This document shows, piece after piece, positions 29,685 to 37,445 of a stretch of DNA of 64,000 nucleotides. This DNA comes from Anaerobacillus isosaccharinicus (lineage in GTDB: Bacteria > Bacillota > Bacilli > Bacillales > Anaerobacillaceae). Under the pieces are notes generated by a model. It did not search any database, had not been told where the DNA came from, and saw only the letters and a list, made by a program, of their open reading frames with translations. The stretch lies in the NCBI RefSeq assembly GCF_001866075.3, contig NZ_CP063356.1, positions 3,958,164-4,022,163 on the forward strand, written 5' to 3'. Position numbers and translations under genes: made by a program. Numbering within the stretch: position 1 is the stretch's first letter; every line of letters starts with the position of its first letter.

Positions 29685-30443
29685 TCATTTTAAAGTGACC
29701 TTATAGGAAATTGGTTGAAGTGTTAGTTTTTTTAGAAAATCTTCTCCTGAAATTCTATATATTTCGCCTGTCAATGTCTCACAATTAAAATTATAAAGTC
29801 TAACAATTTCTGCTTCTTCAGCGTATTCCTCAAGAAAAGCTTTCTCATTTTCCGATAAATAAAAGGGTGTATCCTTTGGGCCAGTTGTCGTTTTTACTTC
29901 AATGTATCTTGGCTTCCCAGAAAGGTCATAAGATAAGATATCATAGCCTGCTCCGTCCCCTTGCTCAACCGATACATGAATAATTTTTTCACCTAACTCA
30001 ACACTTAATCTTTCTTTCTCATGCTGTAAAACATACAACTCTCCTTTTAGACCGAGATCTTTATTCCTTGCATTAATCTCGTCAAAATCCACTTTTCTGG
30101 CACGAAAATTCCGTTTCTTTTCTTTTCGTGTTTCGATTTCTTGCTTTTCTTTTTCACCACGTCCGTCTTGTGCCAGAGATTTCGATCTTAAAATACCATT
30201 TCTACCAAAACGCTCATACTCACAATACTTTAGTAGTTCGTTATGGTCTCTGTGCGAAATCATATTTCTAACTTTTTGCTCAAAGTTCGTGTCATTTCGA
30301 TTTAAATTAATCGCCAAATCATTCCCACCTGGGTTCATTTCGTCCATTAACGCTTCTTTTAGTTCAGTGGTCGTCATTTCCCCAGTTTCTTCTAATATTT
30401 TTATTGCAACTACCAAAATTTCTTTTTCACTGTAATTACTCAA
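29685..30443 (-). CDS. DUF3883 protein, probable restriction endonuclease
   Basis: The N-terminal 90 residues look like a winged-helix domain (SEKEILVVAIKILEETGEMTTTELKEALMDEM) of the kind found in Mrr-like restriction proteins. A charged helical linker follows. The C-terminal domain has GYDILSYD-x-SGKPRYIEVKTT, the D...ExK arrangement of PD-(D/E)xK nucleases in the DUF3883 family. It starts at a TTG with GGGAGG upstream and ends a two-gene unit behind an adenine methyltransferase 53 bp away. I infer it is the nuclease of a restriction-modification pair. Confidence 0.78.
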   Translation of the reverse strand: MSNYSEKEILVVAIKILEETGEMTTTELKEALMDEMNPGGNDLAINLNRNDTNFEQKVRNMISHRDHNELLKYCEYERFGRNGILRSKSLAQDGRGEKEKQEIETRKEKKRNFRARKVDFDEINARNKDLGLKGELYVLQHEKERLSVELGEKIIHVSVEQGDGAGYDILSYDLSGKPRYIEVKTTTGPKDTPFYLSENEKAFLEEYAEEAEIVRLYNFNCETLTGEIYRISGEDFLKKLTLQPISYKVTLK

Positions 30444-30496
30444 AAAGGTTCCTCCCTATATAATTTTATTAAAAAAAGATAGAGTGATTGCTCTAT

Positions 30497-31624
30497 CTAA
30501 TAATTCGTTATTAATATATGTTCCACCTTTTTATCATTTCGATCCATAAAACTAACACTATAAGCCTTATCAAAACCAATAATATTTATCCCTGGTTTGT
30601 TATATAGTTGATAGATAAAATCTGTATTTTTTATGATTAACATAAATTTACAAGGACAATTATTTAACAAATAATGAGCAAGTCGTTCTTGATCACTACT
30701 CCCAAATGAATTATTGGCATAAGTTGAAAAATCACTATCGTACGGAGGATCTAAGAAAATAAAATCTCCCTCTTGAAGCGTGATACTTTTAAAAAACTGT
30801 TCGAAGTCTAGGTTGTAAATCAATGTTTGCTGTAAAATTTCTTGCAGCTCAGTTGTTCTTAAGAAATCAATTTTATTAATGAAAGCTTTGCTATTATATG
30901 AGGCGCCACCATAAGGAACATTGAACCCCCCACTGCTGTTATAACGAAACATTGAAGAGTAACAAAATTCCCTCAAGTAGAAAAATAACGCAATATGAAG
31001 CTCATGATCAATCTTATACTTGTCTCGTTCATTGTATATATAACGATAGTACGTATAAACCGTTGCTCGAATACTAGCTTCGACGTTTTTTTGATAATCT
31101 ACTTCAGGTAAATCACCTTTTTTTAGTTCATTTTTCTTTGTATTATCAAACTTGGAAACGACTGATGTTATTAACTCTTTTATTAAGCGGTCTGCATTAA
31201 TGTTTAAGCTTGCCGGGGTTCTTGTTTCAATTTCGATTCGTTTTGCCTTTGCAAATTGCTCGACTTCTATTTTTAATGCTTCTTTCGTTAGCTCTTCATC
31301 TTTGTAGCGCCCATAAAGAATACGTAACTGTTGAAAATGTTGATCGGAAAATGTACCGAAATAACTCCAAAGTCCCCAAATTTCATGAAGATATTGATGG
31401 AATAGCGGATTTTTCTCTTTTATGAGCTTATACAATGAAATTAATTCACTAGAGAAGTCATTTACAAAAGCTTGCTCATATTGCTCTTTTTTTAATGAAA
31501 AAAAACAAGCGCCTCCTCCTAAGAAAGGCTCTATGTAGTTGTTCATTTTTTCAGGCATGTATCGGTGAATGATTTCCAGTTCGGTCGTTTTACCCCCTGG
31601 CCATTTAACAAACGGTTTTACCAA
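30497..31624 (-). CDS. DNA adenine-N6 methyltransferase (Dam/D12 class)
   Basis: A 375-residue D12-class methyltransferase: motif X KWPGGKTTE, motif I YIEPFLGGGACFF (AdoMet binding) and motif IV FLDPPYDSDF (catalytic DPPY). It methylates adenine N6 in a defined site. It is longer than Dam (about 280), with an insertion around residues 110-200 that could hold the target recognition domain. The TTG start follows AGGAGGAAG. It is followed at once by a DUF3883 nuclease candidate, so protection of host DNA is the probable role. The recognition sequence is not predictable. Confidence 0.88.
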   Translation of the reverse strand: MVKPFVKWPGGKTTELEIIHRYMPEKMNNYIEPFLGGGACFFSLKKEQYEQAFVNDFSSELISLYKLIKEKNPLFHQYLHEIWGLWSYFGTFSDQHFQQLRILYGRYKDEELTKEALKIEVEQFAKAKRIEIETRTPASLNINADRLIKELITSVVSKFDNTKKNELKKGDLPEVDYQKNVEASIRATVYTYYRYIYNERDKYKIDHELHIALFFYLREFCYSSMFRYNSSGGFNVPYGGASYNSKAFINKIDFLRTTELQEILQQTLIYNLDFEQFFKSITLQEGDFIFLDPPYDSDFSTYANNSFGSSDQERLAHYLLNNCPCKFMLIIKNTDFIYQLYNKPGINIIGFDKAYSVSFMDRNDKKVEHILITNY

Positions 31625-31741: not shown

Positions 31742-32878
31742 TTAATATTGAATGGCAGCAAATGCTTGCACTAATCCATGACCGTATTGGCTAGCTGTTC
31801 CTAGATCTTTTGCTGTTTGATTTAAAAGTTGCCGTAATTCTACATTCGTTAAATTTGGTTTTGCTTCCCAAACAAGGGCTGCAACTGCGGCCACGTGTGG
31901 AGATGCCATTGACGTACCATTGTAAGAAGCATAATTATTATTTGGAGTTGTGCTCAGAATGCTAACACCTGGAGCTGAAATTTCAACCGCAGGTCCAGTA
32001 CTTGAAAAAGTACCTCTATTATCATTTTGGTCTGTTGCAGCAACAGCGATGACAGAATCATACTTAGCAGGGTAGCCAACGTTGTCTCCACGTCCTGGTC
32101 TAGTTCCACTATTTCCAGCAGCTGCAACTAGTAATACTCCTTCGTTATAGGCAAGGTCGCAAAATTGTTCTAAGATAGATGAGCTAGAAGATCCTCCTAA
32201 ACTCATATTAATAATATCCATCCCATTTTGAATGGACCACTCAATTCCTTTGGCGATCCCTTCGTATGAACCACTTCCGCTATTATTTAAGACTTTGACG
32301 GCATATAAGTCTGTATGATAGGCAACACCAATTACACCTAAATTATTATTAACAGCAGCTACAGTCCCTGCAACATGGGTACCATGGCCACTTCCATCGT
32401 AGTAAGGATCGCTATTAGCTGAATCAGTAAAAACTGAAAACCCACCTTGTACATTTGCTGATAAGTCTTCATGATTTCTATCAATACCTGTATCTAATAT
32501 CGCTACTTTCATTCCTTTTCCCGTAAACCCTAGGTCGTTAACTTCTGTGCTTTGGACTTTAGGTACCCCCCACGGAATTGGTTGTCCTAATGCCTGGGCA
32601 GCTGCGTTCTCCTCAACAAATTTGATTTTCGGGTGATTTGACAAACCTTTTGCTTGGCGTTCAGAAAGTTTTAATGTAACGACTGGCAGCAAATCAAATG
32701 TGTGTAAAATCTCCTCATCTTTAACACCAAACGCCTTAAGTAATCCTTTTTCAACTTTTCCATCAAATTGAACTAAGTATTCTCCTGTACTCGTATCTTT
32801 TGCAAAAATGCTTGCTGGAGAAAAGACCATTCCTAACAACAAGACAATGGCAAAAAATGCTGAAAATAATTTTTTCAT
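31742..32878 (-). CDS. Subtilisin-type secreted alkaline protease (S8)
   Basis: A 378-residue pre-pro-subtilisin. There is a signal peptide (about 1-26), an I9 propeptide (about 30-105: YLVQFDGKVEKGLL...VKFVEEN) and a mature domain from about AQALGQPIPWG. The catalytic triad is visible: Asp in VAILDTGID, His in GHGTHVAGT and Ser in GTSMASPH, plus the oxyanion Asn in AAAGNSG. The length and motifs match the high-alkaline subtilisins. The ATG follows GGAGGTCATGAG. A palindrome shared with the promoter of the nearby PlcR-like gene lies about 150 bp upstream, so quorum control is plausible. Confidence 0.93.
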   Translation of the reverse strand: MKKLFSAFFAIVLLLGMVFSPASIFAKDTSTGEYLVQFDGKVEKGLLKAFGVKDEEILHTFDLLPVVTLKLSERQAKGLSNHPKIKFVEENAAAQALGQPIPWGVPKVQSTEVNDLGFTGKGMKVAILDTGIDRNHEDLSANVQGGFSVFTDSANSDPYYDGSGHGTHVAGTVAAVNNNLGVIGVAYHTDLYAVKVLNNSGSGSYEGIAKGIEWSIQNGMDIINMSLGGSSSSSILEQFCDLAYNEGVLLVAAAGNSGTRPGRGDNVGYPAKYDSVIAVAATDQNDNRGTFSSTGPAVEISAPGVSILSTTPNNNYASYNGTSMASPHVAAVAALVWEAKPNLTNVELRQLLNQTAKDLGTASQYGHGLVQAFAAIQY

Positions 32879-33027
32879 CTCATGACCTCCATAAAAAGTA
32901 TTTGGTGTTACAACTTAACTATATTTCAAATGTTCAGAAAATTAAAATCTATTTATAACGTAATCAGGGTGAGATATTCTATTAAACAGGTTATTGTATG
33001 AAATCATTTCGATTCTCGTAATTAAAA

Positions 33028-33041
33028 ATAACTATGGTTAT
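33028..33041. promoter_or_regulatory. Candidate operator of the PlcR-like regulator (protease side)
   Basis: ATAACTATGGTTAT, a 14-bp near-palindrome embedded in an AAAAATAACTATRGTTATA stretch shared with 33371-33390. It lies about 150 bp upstream of the protease start and downstream of the peptide gene terminator, fitting an activator site for the protease. Confidence 0.6.
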
Positions 33042-33050
33042 ATCCAAGGG

Positions 33051-33082
33051 CAAAACAAAAAGCGAAGGATGTCCTCCGCTTA
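33051..33082 (-). terminator. Terminator of the peptide gene
   Basis: On the minus strand AGCGGAGGA and TCCTTCGCT form a stem followed by TTTTTGTTTT. It separates the peptide gene from the protease transcription unit. Confidence 0.75.
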
Positions 33083-33109
33083 CTGTTTTTTCCTTAGTAT
33101 TCAAACAAC

Positions 33110-33226
33110 CTATACTTCATGTGGTAAATCTGTTGGTGTAACATTCGTAGCCGGTGATGCAGTTGTAAGCACTGCACCAGTAAATAATAAATTGATAAGT
33201 AGGAAGCCAACTAAGACTTTCTTCAT
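33110..33226 (-). CDS. PapR-like signalling peptide precursor (38 aa)
   Basis: A 38-codon gene with an ATG behind GGATGGTGATACC. It begins MKKVLVGFLLINLLF, a secretion signal, and ends PTDLPHEV. The last seven residues TDLPHEV resemble the B. cereus PapR signal ADLPFEF (shared D-L-P and E at the same positions). In PlcR/PapR systems the peptide is exported, trimmed, re-imported by an oligopeptide permease and bound by the regulator TPR domain. Here the gene is divergent from the regulator, not downstream of it as in B. cereus. It is too short for standard gene callers. Confidence 0.75.
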   Translation of the reverse strand: MKKVLVGFLLINLLFTGAVLTTASPATNVTPTDLPHEV

Positions 33227-33375
33227 AGGTATCACCATCCTGTTTTAATAGTAACTTTTTTGTTATTATACTATTCAATAAGAAATGTTTAAATATTCAA
33301 ATAATACAACCTCGTTTTCTTTTAGTGAGTATTAACCTCAATGTCATTCAATTTCAGCACTTTACGAAAGGAAAA

Positions 33376-33389
33376 ATAACTATAGTTAT
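33376..33389. promoter_or_regulatory. Candidate operator of the PlcR-like regulator (autoregulatory)
   Basis: ATAACTATAGTTAT is a perfect 14-bp palindrome that ends one base before the GGAGGTC ribosome binding site of the regulator gene. Nineteen bases around it are shared, with one change, with the site at 33028. This location suggests autoregulation. Confidence 0.6.
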
Positions 33390-33401
33390 AGGAGGTCAGA
33401 G

Positions 33402-34307
33402 ATGAATTTGAAACATTTTAGCAAAGAACTTGCATGGCTAAGAGTTAAAAATGGATTTTCTCAAAAAGAGCTAGCAAAAGGTATTTGTACACAGCCAGCT
33501 ATTAGTAAGATTGAAAATGGTGATGTTTGTCCGCAACTAGACACATTATATTTACTAGCTTTAAAGTTAAAAGTACCCCTTGGCTATTTAATTAATCTCT
33601 TGTTGTTTGAAAATAAGGAATATATTGACCAAACGATTATGTATATTGAAGAATTAACCTCAAGACATCAGTATGAAGAAGCATTTCAGTTAGTAAAGGC
33701 TGAATTGATCGTTGGCAATCAAGATGCCTGGTTTGAAACTTACTTGTTGTGGCAACGTTTATATAATGGCTACCAGTTGAAATACTATTCTGCGGATGAA
33801 TGCATTAAAGGGCTAAAGAAGTTACTTGAGAATGAAGCTGTGATTATGGAACGATTTTTAGATATAAAAATTCTTAATACAATTGGAACGATCTATTCTA
33901 ATCAAGGAAAATTTAAAGAAAGTATTTTTTATTATGAAAAAATTCTAAGTAATTATCGGCAGGAGTTTATAACTCCTATAATAGAAAGTAAAAATATTTA
34001 TATGTTAAGAGTGATCTATAATAAAGCCAAAACTCTGTATGATGCAGGGGATTTTGAACTTGCATCAGAAGCAGTGCAAAAAGGCATTCAGTTATCAGTT
34101 AAAAATCAAAATATGTCACTACTTGGGCAACTTTATTATTATCAAGGGCAATGTTTTGAACGGCTTAATCATTCTAATGAGACGATTAGAAAATCATACA
34201 CCCAGGCTTTATATTTCTTTGAATTACTAGGGAATTATACATATGTTGAAATTATTAAGAAGCTAAAAGCCAGATTTTTAAAGGTGGAAGTGGAAATGGA
34301 AATTTAA
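33402..34307 (+). CDS. PlcR-like HTH-TPR quorum-sensing transcription regulator
   Basis: Residues about 8-62 form an XRE-type helix-turn-helix (RVKNGFSQKELAKGICTQPAISKIENGDVCPQ); residues 70-290 form TPR-like helical repeats (for example LNTIGTIYSNQGKFKESIFYYEKIL and LGQLYYYQGQCFERL). Length and layout match PlcR and relatives, which bind an imported peptide through the TPR domain and then activate secreted-enzyme genes. The ATG has a strong GGAGGTC site. A peptide gene with PapR-like C-terminus lies divergently 176 bp away and a secreted protease gene follows it. I infer that the three form a quorum-sensing circuit. Confidence 0.85.
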   Translation: MNLKHFSKELAWLRVKNGFSQKELAKGICTQPAISKIENGDVCPQLDTLYLLALKLKVPLGYLINLLLFENKEYIDQTIMYIEELTSRHQYEEAFQLVKAELIVGNQDAWFETYLLWQRLYNGYQLKYYSADECIKGLKKLLENEAVIMERFLDIKILNTIGTIYSNQGKFKESIFYYEKILSNYRQEFITPIIESKNIYMLRVIYNKAKTLYDAGDFELASEAVQKGIQLSVKNQNMSLLGQLYYYQGQCFERLNHSNETIRKSYTQALYFFELLGNYTYVEIIKKLKARFLKVEVEMEI

Positions 34308-34360: not shown

Positions 34361-34895
34361 GGGAACGTGGGGCCTTCAATGTGACCGTAATGAGGTTTCT
34401 TTCATCAATAGGGTCACATAGGAGCTTTCAATGCGACCGTAATCAAGTTTCGTCCATCAATAGGGTCACATAGGAGCTTTCAATGTGACCGTAATCAAGT
34501 TTCTTTCATCACTAGGGTCACATAGGAGCTTTCAATGTGACCGTAATCAAGTTTCGTCCATCGTTAGGGTCACATAGGAGCTTTCAATGTGACCGTAATC
34601 AAGTTTCTTTCATCACTAGGGTCACATAGGAGCTTTCAATGTGACCGTAATCAAATTTCGTCCATCATTAGGGTCACATAGGAGCCTTCCATGTGACCTT
34701 AATCAAGTTTCGTCATCATTAGGGTCACATAGGAGCTTTCAATGTGACCGTAATTAAGTTTCGTCCATCATTACGGTCACATAGGGGCCATCAATGTGAC
34801 CGTAATCAAATTTCGTCCATCATTACGGTCACATAGGAGCCTTCCATGTGACCTAAATCAGGTTTTCCCCCTCATTACGGTCACATGGGAACTTC
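34361..34895. repeat. 52-bp palindromic tandem repeat array (about 10 units)
   Basis: The motif GGTCACATAGGAGC recurs at 34411, 34463, 34515, 34567, 34619, 34671, 34722, 34774, 34826 and 34878, a strict 52-bp period with one 51-bp step; a degenerate first unit starts near 34361. Each unit holds GGTCACAT and ATGTGACC, which pair, and in the right-hand units ATGTGACCGTAAT and ATTACGGTCACAT pair across the unit border. Units differ by scattered substitutions. There are no unique spacers, so it is not a CRISPR. No open frame crosses it. Confidence 0.93.
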
Positions 34896-36739: not shown

Positions 36740-37445
36740 AAGCTTCCAGCGAGGTATTAAAAAAACTCCCCCGTGGTGCTAAAATATATTTGGTTCGCCA
36801 ACCAATATATCAAGCAAACGGGGGAGTTTTATGTCAAAAGACATTAACAGTTTAGCACATACAAAATGGAATTGTAAGTATCACATTGTATTTGCACCAA
36901 AGTATAGAAGACAAGTAATATACGGAAAATTAAAGAAAGACATAGGAGAAATATTAAGAACACTATGTGAAAGAAAAGGCGTTGAAATAATCGAAGCAAC
37001 CGCTTGTAAGGATCATGTACATATGCTAGTAAGTATTCCACCAAAAATAAGTGTGTCCTCATTTGTTGGGTATTTAAAAGGAAAAAGTAGTTTGATGATC
37101 TTTGATAGGCACGCAAATTTGAAGTATAGATATGGAAATCGGAAATTCTGGTGTACTGGCTTTTATGTAGATACGGTAGGAAGAAATAAGAAAGTCATTG
37201 AAGAATACATTAAAAATCAAATACAAGATGATATAGTCGCAGAACAGTTAAGCTTATTAGAGTACGTTGATCCATTTACAGGAGAAGAAGTGAACAAAGG
37301 AAAGAAGAGGAGAAAATAGGCCTTTGAGGTCTGGCCAGTAGAAGTAGTACAAATGGCGAACCGTTCAGTAGCCCTTTAGGGCCTGGTCAGTAACAAAGGC
37401 TTTCAGCCGCAGAACAAACCACCCGTTGTCACGGGTGGTTTTGAT
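36740..37445 (+). mobile_element. IS200/IS605-family element (tnpA only)
   Basis: A single HUH transposase gene is framed by subterminal hairpins: on the left AACTCCCCCGT...ACGGGGGAGTT (about 36764-36829) with an inner ATATATTGGTT stem, on the right a CCACCCG-TTGT-CGGGTGG hairpin (about 37422-37440). There are no inverted-repeat ends or target duplication, as expected for this family. The exact ends are approximate. Confidence 0.75.
36831..37319 (+). CDS. tnpA: IS200-type TnpA Y1 transposase
   Basis: A 162-residue Y1 single-strand transposase. The metal-binding HUH motif is HVHML, and the nucleophile tyrosine lies in the following region (GFYVDTVGRNKKVIEEYIKNQ). The N-terminus HTKWNCKYHIVFAPKYRR is highly characteristic. 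It transposes a single-stranded circle using the terminal hairpins. The start is in the foot of the left hairpin, which likely limits translation as known for IS200. Confidence 0.93.
   Translation: MSKDINSLAHTKWNCKYHIVFAPKYRRQVIYGKLKKDIGEILRTLCERKGVEIIEATACKDHVHMLVSIPPKISVSSFVGYLKGKSSLMIFDRHANLKYRYGNRKFWCTGFYVDTVGRNKKVIEEYIKNQIQDDIVAEQLSLLEYVDPFTGEEVNKGKKRRK

Follow-up and report, generated by a model that had tools for sequence, protein, structure and literature searches.

PlcR-PapR of the Bacillus cereus group is the closest described system to the locus reported here. It pairs a helix-turn-helix (HTH) receptor containing tetratricopeptide repeats (TPR) with a small exported precursor that has L-P-x-E at its C-terminus, uses a palindromic operator, and has secreted proteases among its targets, one of whose genes, nprB, is often found in linkage with the pair. 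These features recur, with the protease as a likely target, at a locus of Anaerobacillus isosaccharinicus that consists of a PlcR-like regulator gene, a divergent 38-codon peptide gene and, behind the latter, a subtilisin gene. The locus lies in a 64-kb stretch of DNA, hereafter the window (bases 3,958,164-4,022,163 of a single 5,227,144-base contig; genome 100% complete), and very probably encodes a quorum switch of the PlcR/PapR peptide type whose regulon is very small, comprising the pheromone gene itself and one exoprotease. The parts of the locus are ordinary, and its wiring is new.

The locus differs from PlcR-PapR in several respects. Whereas papR immediately follows plcR in the same orientation, the peptide gene of the window lies upstream of the regulator on the other strand; the PlcR box is TATGnAnnnnTnCATA and the operator here is ATAACTATRGTTAT; the neighbouring protease is a subtilisin rather than a neutral metalloprotease; and one operator copy stands immediately before the regulator start. 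NprR, the receptor of NprR-NprX, is about 420 amino acids long and has nine TPRs, whereas the regulator of the window has 301 residues and the PlcR fold. The PlcR regulon is large and scattered and consists of genes for exported proteins. It has 28 active boxes and 45 genes (PMC2464732), compared with two exact sites here, both local, although weaker sites are possible. The same paper reports that plcR is autoinduced, in contrast to the self-limitation suggested for the window regulator.

A PlcR paralogue of B. cereus, PlcRa, has its peptide gene upstream and the heptapeptide CSIPYEY (PMC3519770), and thus shares with the window a PlcR-type receptor, an upstream peptide gene and P-x-E in the heptapeptide. 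According to the same source it differs in its 93-amino-acid precursor with the signal inside, in its targets (abrB2 and cysteine metabolism), and in that no palindrome was found before those targets. Surveys of RRNPP systems (PMC10075063, PMC12700828 and PMC9765709) describe receptor-propeptide pairs, a PlcR cluster among them, and PMC10075063 and PMC12700828 show gene orientation in figures; as far as the accessible text of these surveys goes, the window locus may be among their pairs. Among the titles and abstract openings listed in searches of an open-access literature collection, none described a PlcR-type pair beside a subtilisin.

Results

The regulator and its candidate peptide

The features of the locus are listed in Table 1. 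The original prediction, made from the letters of the window, described a 301-residue HTH-TPR regulator, and this protein was confirmed to be of the PlcR type by Pfam matches (RNPP_C, 4.8e-49; HTH_3, 1.8e-13; plus TPR), by comparison with PDB sequences (PlcR 2qfc, 2.3e-36 over residues 5-286; ComR, 0.03) and by predicted fold. An AlphaFold2 model generated with 18 sequences as input was all-helical, with a mean predicted local distance difference test score of 88.2 and a predicted template modelling (TM) score of 0.71. When the model was searched with Foldseek, PDB ranks 1-5 were all PlcR (TM 0.72-0.77 by query length, approximately 285 aligned columns); ComR followed at a TM of approximately 0.5, and ComR, Rgg and PrgX ranked lower. 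The protein has the architecture of the PlcR subfamily of RRNPPA receptors, an N-terminal HTH and a five-TPR C-terminal domain in approximately 290-300 amino acids, and is closer to PlcR than to other RRNPPA receptors by both sequence and predicted fold.

PlcR residues N159, N201, K204 and Y275 are retained in the window regulator as N159, N207, K210 and Y281, and N159 and N207 did not vary in either of two overlapping alignments (17 and 18 sequences). We take N159 of PlcR to be a peptide-contact residue, and we equate N201, K204 and Y275 with PlcRa N205, K208 and Y280. The latter three line the modelled pocket of PlcRa (PMC3519770).

Table 1 Features of the regulator-peptide-subtilisin locus. 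Coordinates are positions in the window.
Feature	Coordinates	Strand	Evidence
Secreted subtilisin (S8) precursor, 378 aa	31742..32878	-	Peptidase_S8 8.2e-70; subtilisin Carlsberg-type structures
Palindrome ATAACTATGGTTAT	33028..33041		149 bp before subtilisin ATG; same place in L036; L035 with one change
Terminator-like hairpin between peptide gene and subtilisin operator	33060..33081	-	3 found versus 2.2 expected in shuffles, weak alone
Candidate pheromone precursor, 38 codons; signal peptide and short tail ending TDLPHEV	33110..33226	-	Frame and C-terminus conserved in L035 and L036
Peptide promoter-like site TTTAAA-17-TATAAT, first hexamer weak	33265..33293	-	10/12 consensus bases
Palindrome ATAACTATAGTTAT	33376..33389		149 bp before peptide ATG, 12 bp before regulator ATG; same places in L035 and L036
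PlcR-like HTH-TPR regulator, 301 aa	33402..34307	+	RNPP_C, HTH_3 and TPR matches; PlcR fold

The divergent gene for a secreted 38-codon peptide ending TDLPHEV was found as predicted, and its product is MKKVLVGFLLINLLFTGAVLTTASPATNVTPTDLPHEV. An alternative, longer frame of 42 amino acids starts at 33238; the 38-codon start was favoured by eye, as it has the better ribosome site and is shared with two congeners (loci L035 and L036, the latter in genome G005). The gene is adjacent to the receptor gene, and its small precursor product carries a Sec signal peptide according to a crude, home-made rule, distinct from SignalP, that was also applied in the census below. The product matched no family in Pfam, NCBIfam or PHROGs at the thresholds used. 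It retains the proline and glutamate that PapR needs (PMC6568020).

A search for the same neighbourhood in relatives, proposed with the original prediction, found the same three genes in the same order in both congeners, with orthologous regulators that were 78% and 73% identical to that of the window. The peptides of the congeners end TPADLPHEV and TPTDLPHEV. Conservation of the 38-codon frame had been set beforehand as a test that could overturn the prediction; the frame was kept in both congeners, and synonymous change exceeded non-synonymous change. By codon-by-codon count, the proportions of synonymous and non-synonymous differences (pS/pN) for the three pairs were 0.43/0.12, 0.58/0.16 and 0.55/0.16. 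Over the last ten codons pN was 0.04, 0.00 and 0.04, which points to the strongest protection at the signal end. Judged by these counts, the peptide frame is under purifying selection in the window and the two congeners.

Putative operators and regulon

The putative operator is a 14-bp palindrome, ATAACTATRGTTAT, with two exact copies in the 5.23-Mb genome, both at this locus (Table 1); within the window these were also the only copies at up to one mismatch. The distances to the peptide and subtilisin starts, equal in the window, are 150 and 152 bp in L035 and 147 and 150 bp in L036, and the copy next to the regulator precedes its start by 12 bp in the window, 15 bp in L035 and 11 bp in L036. 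Because the only exact copies lie at this locus, the regulon looks local, in agreement with the self-contained circuit of the original prediction. The equal spacing before two unrelated coding sequences, together with operon-like linkage in distant relatives (see below), is the strongest indication that peptide and protease are controlled together, and the copy beside the regulator start suggests that the regulator limits itself.

Among seven genomes of the genus, searched at up to one mismatch, the site pair was present at the locus in three, which are those with the orthologous regulator and also those with a subtilisin orthologue of at least 80% identity. The pair was not found at this threshold in the other four, three of which are 62-90% complete. 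In the same genus, G003 has a more distant regulator (37% identity) with a divergent peptide ending NDLPYEV, and a subtilisin relative (66%) at a contig end. An exact operator copy also occurs in G004 (L143), with other genes on either side, and four one-mismatch places viewed in G002 (three) and G005 (one) adjoin other genes. The genome of the window has six one-mismatch places, five of them within reading frames. The sixth (L062, 1501-1514) partly coincides with the end of an M16-peptidase-like frame, and the following frame begins 139 bp further on; a terminator-like hairpin lies between the site and this following frame, which makes the site an unlikely target.

Searches for a wider regulon gave no excess of sites over the reversed pattern. 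At up to two mismatches, ATAACYATRGTTAT gave 158 sites per strand compared to 213 for the reversed pattern, and ATAACTATRGTTAT at one mismatch gave 3 and 6 sites on the two strands compared to 9 and 7. The PlcR box had no exact match in the 64 kb and five one-mismatch places, none of which lay between the regulator and the subtilisin start. Counts of the pattern TATRnAnnnnTnYATA in the 100 bp immediately preceding 50 regulators that have divergent candidates do not support a general statement: perfect matches numbered 3 versus 0.15 expected in shuffles, but one-mismatch matches 5 versus 4.3. The palindromes between peptide and regulator genes vary by locus, and several short gaps have none.

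The promoter-like site before the peptide gene was the best of 14 in the region, where shuffles gave 11.9, and is weak when taken alone; its TATAAT ends 38-39 nt before the peptide ATG in the window and both congeners. A hairpin with a T-run comparable to that behind the peptide gene was seen by eye in L035 and L036. Since neither kind of site exceeded shuffled counts, the argument for them is their conservation.

Gene arrangement among relatives

For a census of relatives, the window regulator was used as query (E <= 1e-25) against 397 genomes sampled from the order, and matches were obtained in 67. The analysis covered 78 of the 85 listed places (the window and 77 others), omitting the last seven of the list, and these 78 loci and PlcR were placed in a quick, unrooted tree. 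An alignment-based search of named records additionally gave 17 loci with relatives of the regulator, in Alkalicoccus, Salsuginibacillus, Jeotgalibacillus, Rossellomorea, Salipaludibacillus, Texcoconibacillus, Lysinibacillus and Bacillus sp.; a single-protein search of the same records gave no match.

Small open reading frames (ORFs) with a signal-like start and a ribosome site numbered 66 within 450 bp of the regulators, compared to 16 beyond 1.5 kb over 287 kb and 2.6 per set of flank shuffles. ORFs ending [DN]LPxE(x), a motif that, like DLPxE, was picked only after the relatives' peptides had been viewed, numbered 18 within 450 bp and none in either the distant 287 kb or ten dinucleotide shuffles, and all 18 were divergent. 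The original prediction had called the signal sequence new. The precursor is indeed of the PapR type, but DLPxE peptides occur in several genera, as DLPYEx and DLPHEV variants with V, A, T, S, D, R, W, P or N as the last residue, and the claim of novelty was not upheld. Multi-copy precursors were seen at L118, L114, L110, L045 and L049, with repeated ELPPIH, DLPHAG (five copies), ELPPLF and DLPYED. In L080, L082 and L084, which belong to a PlcR-like group, the divergent peptides end RDHKDDPGIGWRY, very unlike PapR, and are followed by similar exported proteins of 211-212 amino acids.

Under the looser rule, the peptide candidate was divergent at 48 of the 78 loci (including L042, a doubtful candidate), convergent at 6, downstream at 5 and absent at 19. 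Divergent candidates at L089 and L091 proved spurious and were corrected for in this count, and the downstream peptide of L054, which ends DLKHEY and has no proline, was scored as none. The stricter motif gave 34 divergent, 4 convergent, 2 downstream and 38 without a candidate. Both large groups of the tree include divergent cases, and PlcR itself pairs with L083 in a group in which 27 of 38 rows are divergent. With 48 of 59 candidate-bearing loci divergent, and in both groups, this layout is the common one in the sample, and the suggestion that it is special to the window did not hold. PMC9765709 states in its discussion that Bacillales pheromones are encoded immediately downstream of the receptor, and in its introduction that they are encoded upstream or downstream; the census is at odds with the former statement.

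The subtilisin that the original prediction placed just behind the peptide gene was confirmed by its Peptidase_S8 match, and among solved structures the best matches were to subtilisin Carlsberg and its relatives (E about 1e-85). At 19 of the 78 loci a subtilase was a nearest larger gene (ORF of at least 90 amino acids); it lay on the upstream side of the regulator at 18 of these and on the downstream side at the other one. The full order of regulator, divergent peptide and subtilase on the peptide strand was found in the window, L035, L036, L040, L043, L045, L049 and L050. The genome of the window has nine S8 matches in 5.2 Mb, which makes subtilase neighbours by chance rare, although the loci are related by descent. 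In the distant loci L040, L043, L045 and L049, peptide and subtilase are separated by 45, 35, 31 and 24 bp, respectively, and judging by these gaps probably form one operon; in L050 the two frames touch, and the true start is ambiguous. The gap is 231, 219 and 230 bp in the window and the two congeners, and contains the terminator-like hairpin. Given the matched operators before peptide and subtilisin and the operon-like linkage in distant relatives, the subtilisin is a likely target of the peptide-regulator pair, as had been predicted.

By a crude rule, the first gene on the peptide strand was signal-like in 23 of 39 cases and the first downstream gene at the same loci in 17 of 47, a modest difference. 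Where there is no subtilase, the slot behind the peptide may in some loci hold another exported protein. In L039 (6903-7905) and L048 (7183-8198), a small exported protein and a similar membrane protein of 96-99 amino acids lie behind the divergent peptide. Neither protein matched Pfam, and the pair is likely to be another output set.

Neighbouring features

Elsewhere in the same genome, tandem regulators of 295 and 291 amino acids (L051, 6384-8406) belong to the wider family, at 27-28% identity; on reading the surrounding sequence, an obvious signal-peptide ORF beside this pair was not found. Directly behind the window regulator, ten tandem 52-bp units with inverted halves (GGTCACAT...ATGTGACC) occupy 34375-34894, and nine of ten genome matches to the core of the array, at up to three mismatches, fall within it. 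EutH is encoded beyond the array, and an IS200-type transposase (Y1_Tnp) lies near the locus at 36831-37319. On the other side, at 29685-31624, a D12-class adenine methyltransferase adjoins a NOV_C-domain protein, and the two could be a restriction-modification-like pair. Nothing about the flanking genes (D12 methyltransferase, NOV_C protein and EutH) suggests a role in the circuit.

Discussion

The components of the locus, their conservation and the copies and spacing of its operator are read directly from the DNA. In the mechanism that we infer from them, by analogy with PlcR-PapR, the 38-amino-acid precursor would be exported and its C-terminus (about TDLPHEV) trimmed outside the cell, after which the peptide would be re-imported by an oligopeptide permease and bind in the groove formed by the regulator's TPRs. 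In its peptide-bound form the regulator would bind the ATAACTATRGTTAT palindromes and activate the peptide gene, in positive feedback, together with the subtilisin gene, and it may limit its own synthesis via the copy 12 bp before its start. An opp system, which the original prediction proposed to look for, is represented by Opp-type transporter genes in the genome: there are seven SBP_bac_5 matches, one operon (L174) has opp D-, F-, A-, B- and C-like genes and L173 has parts of another, with matches mostly below curated NCBIfam cut-offs. The predicted PlcR/PapR-like circuit outside the B. cereus group was upheld in its receptor, its precursor and its occurrence in another genus, but not in the novelty of layout and signal.

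Several observations weigh against the proposed switch. PlcR K87 and K89, which are reported to hold the glutamate of PapR (PMC6568020), are replaced by S87 and H89 in the window regulator, so that the glutamate would have to be read differently, or via neighbours such as R88 and H89. The regulator of G005 (L036, near 8131) is frameshifted near codon 22; the system may be broken there, or this may be an assembly or sequencing error. The operator differs from the PlcR box and appears tied to the regulator by its location and by co-occurring with it. It lies upstream of the -35-like hexamer of the peptide gene, its near end 82 bp away, which is far for a simple activator, and its mismatched forms are rarer than the reversed control, which indicates that mismatched sites carry no signal.

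That the peptide is some other small secreted product, no pheromone for the regulator, and the neighbourhood a coincidence, is very improbable. Its lack of a family match would suit this explanation, but the same place, strand and C-terminal DLPxE recur in several genera and are absent far from the regulators and from shuffled sequence, and the last ten codons are the most constrained. The regulator could alternatively repress peptide and protease until released or switched by the peptide, as occurs in some Rgg and PrgX systems. In all three genomes a palindrome stands 11-15 bp ahead of the regulator start, which suits a road-block. However, the palindrome stands 149 bp before the start codon of both targets, on the upstream side of a promoter-like site whose first hexamer is weak, an arrangement that suits activation, and the closest relative of solved structure, PlcR, is an activator of its targets (PMC2464732); we consider repression unlikely.

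The subtilisin may be the maturase of the pheromone, like NprB of B. cereus, as well as, or rather than, an output of the switch, which would close a loop of peptide, receptor and maturase and is compatible with a PlcR/PapR-type switch; we take this seriously without favouring it. NprB, which is under PlcR control, contributes to the maturation of PapR, and in many cases its gene lies very close to plcR-papR, in the opposite orientation (PMC4701985, PMC10017872). The subtilase neighbours in 19 of 78 loci, four of them in a probable operon with the peptide, would fit such a role. Yet the other S8 proteins among the nine of the genome could trim the peptide as well, 59 of the 78 loci lack a subtilase neighbour, some having other exported proteins in its place, and some B. 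cereus strains without intact nprB still carry plcR-papR (PMC10017872). A broader scheme can be offered only tentatively and is rather doubtful: a three-gene closed loop in which the subtilisin would be both the only output and the maturase, and the receptor would limit itself, set in a wider group in which the divergent pair would be older, a variety of exported proteins would have refilled the output slot, and the gene arrangement and large regulon of B. cereus would be derived.

With the PlcR/PapR-type switch as the preferred explanation, the locus adds to the biology of a regulator that is known mainly as a master switch for virulence in the B. cereus group, and that here is probably a one-enzyme switch in another genus. 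Its matched operators at equal spacing provide a small, testable model for how peptide-receptor pairs gain and lose regulons, and the DLPYEx and DLPHEV variants of the relatives would be useful for work on signal specificity and on the control of subtilisin.

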